From NCBI RefSeq assembly GCF_014696675.1, contig NZ_JACJQN010000016.1:62001-126000 (forward strand): a stretch of DNA of 64,000 nucleotides. The letters run 5' to 3'. Below are positions 30,591-31,367 of the stretch, piece by piece. Within the stretch, counting starts at the first letter, position 1. The number at the start of each line of letters is the position of its first letter. A model generated the notes under the pieces. That model ran no database searches and was not told the DNA's origin. It was given only the letters and a program-made list of their open reading frames with translations. Origin of the DNA: Phormidium tenue FACHB-1052. Its GTDB lineage: Bacteria; Cyanobacteriota; Cyanobacteriia; Phormidesmidales; Phormidesmidaceae. The position numbers and the translations under genes are program-made.

Positions 30591-30824
30591 ATGAGCGTTG
30601 ACAGCAAGGATTTTCAAGACGAACTGCAAAAGGCGATCGACTACGCCCACCAAATCACTGCCGAAAAGGGTGAAACCTCTACTGAAGCTGCTGCCGCCTG
30701 GGATGTCGTGGAAGAGATGCGCGCCGAGGTGTCGCACCAGCACCAGATCCCTAAGAAAACTGGTTTTGACCAGTATCTAGAAGACAATCCCGAAGCGCCT
30801 GAAGGATTAATGTACGACACTTAA
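30591..30824 (+). CDS. CP12-like protein without cysteines
   Basis: 77 residues; GAGGAG at 30581 gives a good ribosome binding site. The CP12 core AAAAWDVVEEMRAE is at about 33-46, and the C-terminal frame FDQYLEDNPEAPEGLMYD keeps the Y..(D)NP.A.E...YD spacing of CP12, but both C-terminal cysteines are changed (Leu63 and Gly72), and there is no N-terminal pair either: the protein has no cysteine at all. CP12 clamps GAPDH and phosphoribulokinase in the dark through disulfides; this variant cannot be redox-switched that way. Cys-poor CP12 variants are known in cyanobacteria. Role unknown. Confidence 0.8.
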   Translation: MSVDSKDFQDELQKAIDYAHQITAEKGETSTEAAAAWDVVEEMRAEVSHQHQIPKKTGFDQYLEDNPEAPEGLMYDT

Positions 30825-30945
30825 AGGCAACTCCTGAGCGGTGATTTGACCCCTCCCAGGGGCAGATTTGGAGTGCTAAAATTGCCTTAGTTAGTTTTCG
30901 GTAGATTTCGCTTGTTTCATTTCATTTTGATTTCCGATACAGCTT

Positions 30946-30986
30946 TGTCTCCGTTTACTCACTGCACGTTGTACAGTACGGAGACA
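30946..30986 (+). promoter_or_regulatory. Leader hairpin that covers the ribosome binding site of the RRM gene
   Basis: TGTCTCCGT (30946-30954) is the exact reverse complement of ACGGAGACA (30978-30986). ACTG (30961-30964) and CAGT (30974-30977) can extend the stem inside, with a 6-base bulge on the left. GGAG at 30980-30983, 8 bases before the ATG at 30992, is the only good ribosome binding site, and it is paired with CTCC in the left arm. This looks like a translational switch; temperature is a natural guess because RRM proteins of this kind are cold-induced, but that is inference. Confidence 0.6.
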
Positions 30987-30991
30987 ATCCT

Positions 30992-31300
30992 ATGTCACTC
31001 TACGTTGGTAACTTGTCCTACGATGTCACTCGCGAAGATCTAGAGCGAGTGTTTGCAGAATACGGCGATGTGAAGCGGGTTAGCCTGCCCACCGATCGCG
31101 AAACGGGTAAGCCTCGGGGCTTTGCCTTTGTCGATATGGCTGCTGAAGCTCAAGAAGACGCCATCATCGAATCCCTCGATGGGGCTGAGTGGATGGGTCG
31201 CGAAATGCGGGTCAACAAGGCTCGCCCCCGCGACGATGCCCGCAGTGGTGCTAACGCAGGTAGCAGCAATGGTGGCAACTACCGCCGCACCGGCTTCTAG
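30992..31300 (+). CDS. rbp: Cyanobacterial RRM-type RNA-binding protein (Rbp)
   Basis: 102 residues: one RNA recognition motif (about 2-80) with RNP2 LYVGNL at the start and RNP1 KPRGFAFV near residue 45, then a short Gly/Asn/Ser-rich tail ending YRRTGF. Such proteins bind RNA in the cytosol; several are induced by cold or help localise photosynthesis mRNAs. A structured leader precedes it and a terminator follows, so it is a single-gene unit. Confidence 0.95.
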   Translation: MSLYVGNLSYDVTREDLERVFAEYGDVKRVSLPTDRETGKPRGFAFVDMAAEAQEDAIIESLDGAEWMGREMRVNKARPRDDARSGANAGSSNGGNYRRTGF

Positions 31301-31338
31301 GCTCCCTTAACGAGCTAAACCGAGCCAAATATTCAGTA

Positions 31339-31367
31339 GGGTAGGTCACAGTGGCCTACCCTTTTTT
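31339..31367 (+). terminator. Intrinsic terminator of the RRM gene
   Basis: GGGTAGGTCA, loop CAG, TGGCCTACCC (one G-U pair), then TTTTTT at 31362-31367. It may also help end the opposing gene, which stops at 31383. Confidence 0.9.

Follow-up and report, generated by a model that had tools for sequence, protein, structure and literature searches.

The rbp gene and the hairpin in its leader

The window, by which the whole stretch of 64,000 nt analysed here is meant (Phormidium tenue FACHB-1052, contig NZ_JACJQN010000016.1, positions 62,001 to 126,000 of the forward strand), harbours a gene for a cyanobacterial RNA-binding protein with an RNA recognition motif (RRM), here called rbp, and the mRNA leader in front of this gene contains a hairpin that covers the Shine-Dalgarno (SD) sequence (Table 1). 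A comparison of the gene product with Pfam gave RRM_1 (E 3e-21) and with NCBIfam the family NF058537, Rbp_regulator, at 106.9 bits with a cut-off of 100. By the single-RRM criterion given in passages of PMC9333190 the gene belongs to class I, and the PDPRWA-type C-terminal region, which is present in the paralogue at locus L116, is absent from its product.

The first-pass annotation of this DNA had described a stem of nine perfect base pairs, with four more pairs inside, burying the GGAG that serves the ATG at 30992. Both arms exist but the perfect stem consists of ten pairs, 30945-30954 with 30978-30987; the four inner pairs are there as described, ACTG (30961-30964) with CAGT (30974-30977), and the GGAG, 8 nt 5' of the start codon, lies entirely within the stem and is indeed buried. 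When folded, a 71-nt stretch reached -19.3 kcal/mol (z -2.24; 4 of 200 shuffles were equally stable), and of 20,000 dinucleotide shuffles of that part of the region -60..-1 which lies upstream of an unchanged SD, 0.03% produced a Watson-Crick stem with at least 10 pairs including the GGAG. Perfect 10-bp inverted repeats with a loop of 3-30 nt occur at 11 places in the window, so that the repeat taken alone proves little and the comparison decides. The hairpin is confirmed as genuine and beyond chance, and its strongest support is the comparative evidence given below.

Table 1. Positions of the rbp gene, its leader and other features (positions in the window unless a locus is named)
Feature	Position	Strand	Evidence
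-10-like hexamer TAAAAT of a presumed promoter, preceded by TGC	30877..30882	+	conserved island; consensus-like only
rbp mRNA leader, inferred 5' untranslated region (5'UTR) of ~102 nt	30890..30991	+	conservation; match to model R1
5' conserved box TTTTCGGTAGATTTCGCTTGTTT, TCGG core recurring in other cyanobacteria	30895..30917	+	conservation
Anti-SD (5') arm of the hairpin, TTGTCTCCGT	30945..30954	+	fold; covariation with SD arm
Loop of 23 nt, four weak inner pairs, CTC..CTRCA-like motif	30955..30977	+	fold; relatives
SD arm ACGGAGACAA, including GGAG at 30980-30983	30978..30987	+	fold
Class-I cyanobacterial RRM protein (Rbp), 102 aa	30992..31300	+	Pfam RRM_1; NCBIfam NF058537
Terminator-like hairpin with T run, where the rbp transcript may end	31338..31362	+	window scan: 11 pairs, T-rich tail
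Direct repeat in other rbp leaders	L064:2416-2454; L097:2403-2448; also in L062, L069, L081, L082, L083, L096, L099, L100, L220		

Covariation of the two arms

Covariation in orthologues, which the first-pass annotation had set as a check on its hairpin, was found both in an alignment of 64 leaders and in an alignment-free swap of arms among 117 leaders. The alignment was made with MAFFT from 66 non-redundant leaders, minus L078, where no leader could be recognised, and L110, which has a GTG start and a divergent leader. Of the cells in a named 12-pair stem 80.3% are paired, compared with 72.7% after shuffling, two-sided changes occur in 55 cells against 23 in the shuffled alignments, and the covariation score is 0.204 against 0.115, with none of 500 shuffles reaching these values; when the partner is slid along the alignment the pairing falls to 32-60%. 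The core TCTCC:GGAGA is nearly invariant, the most conserved paired core being the SD and its complement, and change is found mostly in the flanking pairs. These extend outward in leaders of the window type (TTGTCTCC/GGAGACAA, and also ATATCTCC/GGAGATAT and CCATCTCC/GGAGATGG); in leaders of the Nostoc type they extend inward (TCTCCGAAA/TTTYGGAGA).

The swap of arms, performed with leaders at most 90% alike, gave -12.8 kcal/mol for a leader's own arms and -10.4 kcal/mol for swapped ones, and none of 10,000 permutations was as low (z about -13). Own arms also pair better within each of four groups defined by sequence motifs (z -5.4, -5.0, -3.4 and -6.3). From 20 closer leaders RNAalifold recovered the stem, with three pairs showing two-sided changes.

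Other pairings within the leader were put through the same swap. A pairing between an upstream ACA-containing box and the start codon, proposed by RNAalifold on alignment A2 from near-invariant columns, gave a weak result (z -2.9; 7 of 5000), and the pairing of the loop with the SD (z -2.3; 43 of 5000) may reflect an overlap with the main stem. For the region -80..-57 with the SD a leader's own arms pair worse than swapped ones (z +3.1), and this pairing was rejected.

The genome itself allows a comparison of paralogues, since it holds six RRM genes. By eye, the leaders of the window gene and of L111, L112 and L114 have an SD-hiding hairpin whose arms differ from one leader to another and yet match each other within it (for example TACATCTCC/GGAGATGTA in L112), and when the arms of the four were swapped in a 4 x 4 table, three leaders paired best with their own arm while the fourth came within 0.1 kcal/mol of its best combination. 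No such hairpin was seen by eye at L115, which has a GTG start, or at L116, the PDPRWA type.

Occurrence of the leader in cyanobacteria

To follow the SD pairing more widely, 110 loci with rbp relatives were collected, some of them the same contig from two collections, from which 95 distinct leaders were examined, 89 of them with a canonical SD. The SD is paired to an upstream partner with p>0.5 in 88 and with p>0.9 in 81 of the 89, and among control open reading frames with an SD, taken mechanically from the same loci after removal of 6 rbp starts, these values were reached in 40 and 5 of 66; the leaders are phylogenetically non-independent.

A covariance model, R1, was built from 48 leaders and used for a search of a phylum sample (E <=0.001, stricter filters), which gave 113 matches in 52 of 146 genomes. 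In the genome of the window R1 detects two places, both of them rbp leaders, and among the six RRM genes these are the window gene and L114. When 111 of the 113 matches were read (one of these loci, L122, placed by coordinates), 109 proved to run up to an RRM gene start, recognised by the N-terminal motif, and 2 to broken RRM genes, and the remaining 2, in genome G047, adjoin RRM matches. Among the 94 genomes in which R1 has no match, 15 were hand-picked and searched for the protein, 14 of them with a positive result, and the boxes were seen by eye to be kept at L228, L229, L231, L243 and L245, all in such genomes. In G059, which lies outside the class, and in f2, a family of five small genomes (1.7-2.6 Mb, probably picocyanobacteria by their size), the boxes are by eye not kept. 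The leader shares conserved blocks with the rbp leaders of other cyanobacteria in the alignments as well as in R1, and folding and the covariance model together indicate that this architecture is widespread ahead of class-I rbp genes in Cyanobacteriia.

The two broken genes are of different kinds. At L159:1-518 (genome G099) a frameshifted rbp gene stands behind the leader, with an open copy, L157, ~32 kb away on the same contig. At L187:1-515 (genome G134) the leader is followed by the first four rbp codons and then by unrelated sequence; this may reflect an insertion, or else the gene was beheaded.

A search of the window and of five related loci with Rfam at the gathering score found no family, and a lax search gave only two matches at chance level (E 0.56 and 1.5). 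The leader family could be proposed to Rfam and could serve as a marker for class-I rbp genes.

The conserved 5' part and the probable start of transcription

When comparing 16 leaders of the genus, the window's own and those of 15 relatives (some of the contigs are titled Nodosilinea or Leptolyngbya), with conservation taken as the mean share of the commonest base, the leader 30890-30991 was found to be 95.8% conserved, whereas the third positions of the gene's first 82 codons reach 84.5%. Its first 28 nt, 30890-30917, reach 99.6%, and the stretch 30772-30869, within which the upstream gene ends, reaches 69.8%. A small island at 30870-30882 is 86.5% conserved with flanks of 69.8% and 61.6%, the latter being the spacer between the TAAAAT and the leader and the least conserved of these parts. 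Because of the -10-like TAAAAT and the sharp rise of conservation at ~30890, transcription is inferred to start near 30889-30890. A start 3' of 30954, which the first-pass annotation had named as the case that would speak against its switch, is from the same two signs unlikely.

Of 97 leaders, 78 have the TCGG core of the 5' box at a place 5' of -75, and a permissive regular expression recovered the loop motif (CTC..CTRCA-like) from 75 of 117. In the genome the 5' box occurs as a single copy at <=3 mismatches, with none on the reverse strand, and the loop block has elsewhere in the genome only one match, with 3 mismatches and on the reverse strand. Since the genome holds no extra copies of the 5' box, the idea that the boxes mark a regulon or an antisense partner was rejected.

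Known rbp leaders

Leaders of this gene family have been described before. Passages of PMC9333190 attribute 'conserved boxes for cold response' in class-I rbp 5'UTRs to Maruyama 1999 and Hamano 2004 (Anabaena rbpA1 and Synechococcus rbp1), Hayashi 2017, cited in PMC13197396, states in its title that the rbp1 5'UTR is required for low-temperature translation, and further titles, Sato & Nakamura 1998 and Ehira 2005 among them, concern rbpA1 and the part of its 5'UTR in cold-regulated expression and in the accumulation of the transcript. As far as these excerpts and titles go, the gene family, the position in the 5'UTR, the conserved boxes and the cold context are shared with the leader in the window, which is thus a structured leader of a known kind and is itself partly known, its boxes and the need for the 5'UTR being in print. 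What has been measured here in comparison with the published 5'UTRs is the covariation, the comparison of paralogues and the specificity of the model matches, the published boxes having been compared by description only. In titles and the beginnings of abstracts, among the papers listed, no description of an SD hairpin in rbp leaders was found, which is no proof of its absence from the literature. The RRM proteins are presented in passages of PMC9333190 as widely conserved, cold-related RNA-binding proteins of cyanobacteria; those on the rbp 5'UTR give no mechanism, and a covarying SD-hiding hairpin leads to the testable question of what opens it.

What might open the hairpin

We consider it rather likely that the hairpin controls translation as one part of a conserved class-I rbp leader which is off by default and opened in trans, and that it is not a self-sufficient thermometer that melts with heat. 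In the default state the anti-SD arm, through its TCTCC core, would pair with the GGAG and thereby keep ribosomes from initiating, and a trans-acting factor would open or lock the hairpin by way of the conserved 5' boxes and the loop, with cold- and stress-dependent synthesis of Rbp as the outcome. Candidates for such a factor are Rbp itself, a cold-induced DEAD-box helicase and ribosomal protein S1. The fold, the conservation, the covariation of the arms and the association with rbp genes were computed here, and it is repression in vivo and the trans factor that we infer; on the folding models, rbp genes with this hairpin are probably translated only once something opens it.

Several observations weigh against this proposal. 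No opening mechanism was found in the computational analysis, and the presumed binding sites are not clearly open in silico, with a mean unpaired probability of 0.54 for the 5' box in the window and 0.49 for the region -105..-63 in 99 leaders, the loop being unpaired at 0.48. Six of the 95 distinct leaders lack a canonical SD, in a leader of the same genus (L005) AGAG replaces GGAG, and in the family f2 of small genomes no such element was seen by eye. For two of the five measures of covariation the signal is weak, with 46 and 49 of 500 shuffles scoring as high, the covariation term of RNAalifold on the 20 closer leaders is just -0.06, and on the mixed alignment A4 of 48 leaders RNAalifold predicts no pairs, presumably because the register and length of the stem vary among groups.

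The first-pass annotation had held a thermometer plausible, that is a hairpin which warming melts by itself so that the SD is exposed. An SD-hiding hairpin beside a temperature-related gene would fit this and a simple hairpin thermometer is known in cyanobacteria, hsp17 of Synechocystis, where likewise a single hairpin hides the ribosome-binding site; that element, according to the abstract of PMC4477652, is however temperature-regulated and has its start codon paired within a second stem. The rbp stem is predicted with ViennaRNA to stay closed at all temperatures tested, the SD remaining paired over the range 5-50 °C for the window and, for 108-110 of 111 leaders, over 10-65 °C. The same annotation had stated that cyanobacterial RRM proteins are cold-regulated, which agrees with the description of rbp as cold-responsive in sections of PMC9333190 and PMC6091082, and for a gene of this type melting would act in the opposite direction. 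Because of the predicted stability and the direction of the response an autonomous thermometer was rejected as very improbable. In leaders of the cspA type the leader of a cold-induced RNA-binding-protein gene controls translation, and a two-state cold sensor of this kind, in which the 5' box captures the anti-SD arm in the cold and frees the SD, looks attractive by eye: in many leaders the 5' box offers a TTCGG complementary to CCGAA in the anti-SD arm, and in the window CGG(T)AGA could likewise pair to TCTCCG; also, the upstream fold predicted by ViennaRNA at <=30 °C differs from that at >=37 °C. When arms were swapped among 97 leaders, in a test covering this one pairing of 5' box with anti-SD arm, no matching was seen (z 0.3), and TTCGG or CGGTAGA as an antisequestor was therefore rejected. 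The rbp leaders thus differ from the cspA type in that no covarying alternative pairing between the two was found, the SD is still paired in the cold with no open state predicted at 5-20 °C, and such a sensor appears quite unlikely. A leader opened in trans is what remains, because the thermometer and the antisequestor of 5' box and anti-SD arm are both unsupported.

Two further explanations shift the function away from translation or away from RNA. The hairpin could primarily protect the rbp mRNA or time its decay through access of RNase E or J, with control of translation as a secondary effect, and RNase E of Synechocystis is indeed reported, in passages of PMC10989929, to bind short hairpins and to cut an AU-rich stretch just 3' of them. 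To this we give little probability, as the paired core that is most conserved is the SD with its complement and the title of Hayashi 2017 concerns translation. The 5' boxes might instead be a DNA operator or a downstream promoter element, the SD hairpin alone acting as RNA. The boxes begin at the inferred transcription start, and no matching is seen between the 5'-most part and the anti-SD arm, nor between -100..-73 and the SD (z -0.2 for the latter, which was rejected as a pairing). The conserved block, though, continues into the hairpin and was found only at rbp genes or their remnants in the R1 matches read; both observations are still compatible with a role as DNA, which we nevertheless regard as unlikely.

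The protein-controlled, autoregulatory switch that the first-pass annotation had also named stays plausible, Rbp itself being the putative regulator; that the leader goes together with rbp genes is compatible with such autoregulation and goes no further. Autoregulatory leaders are known for bacterial RNA-binding proteins, for instance the ribosomal proteins, and as in these the rbp leader is tied to one family of RNA-binding proteins and covers its own SD, the rbp case being known here from sequence alone. More speculatively, the leader could be a cyanobacteria-wide autoregulatory switch in which Rbp binds the boxes and the loop of its own mRNA and those of its paralogues and so sets the state of the SD hairpin, a possibility that we put forward tentatively and regard as less likely than not. 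One shared leader would in that case wire together a cross-regulated family of cold-stress RNA-binding proteins. Autoregulation in the eukaryotic glycine-rich RRM proteins offers a parallel.

Variant leaders and neighbouring features

In the leaders at L051 and L076, from records titled Cyanothece and Crocosphaera, both TCTCC and GGAG are lost and there is no canonical SD; by eye they may retain a shifted stem of GAGTGA-like with TCACTT-like sequence.

Nostoc-type rbp leaders carry, directly 5' of the SD hairpin, an imperfect direct repeat of ~15-23 nt that resembles TATTGACAGGCTT (Table 1). At least 12 of 15 positions match in 10 of 82 leaders, 9 of them with a spacing of 24 nt, and in 24 of 82 leaders no more than 1 of 20 shuffles was as good. 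From their sequence these repeats may possibly represent paired protein-binding sites.

A scan of the window for terminators gave 3 sites like the one listed in Table 1 downstream of rbp, with 2.1 expected, so that this site stands as evidence at the level of a scan. Directly 5' of the rbp gene and on the same strand lies a gene with a CP12 domain (30591-30824).
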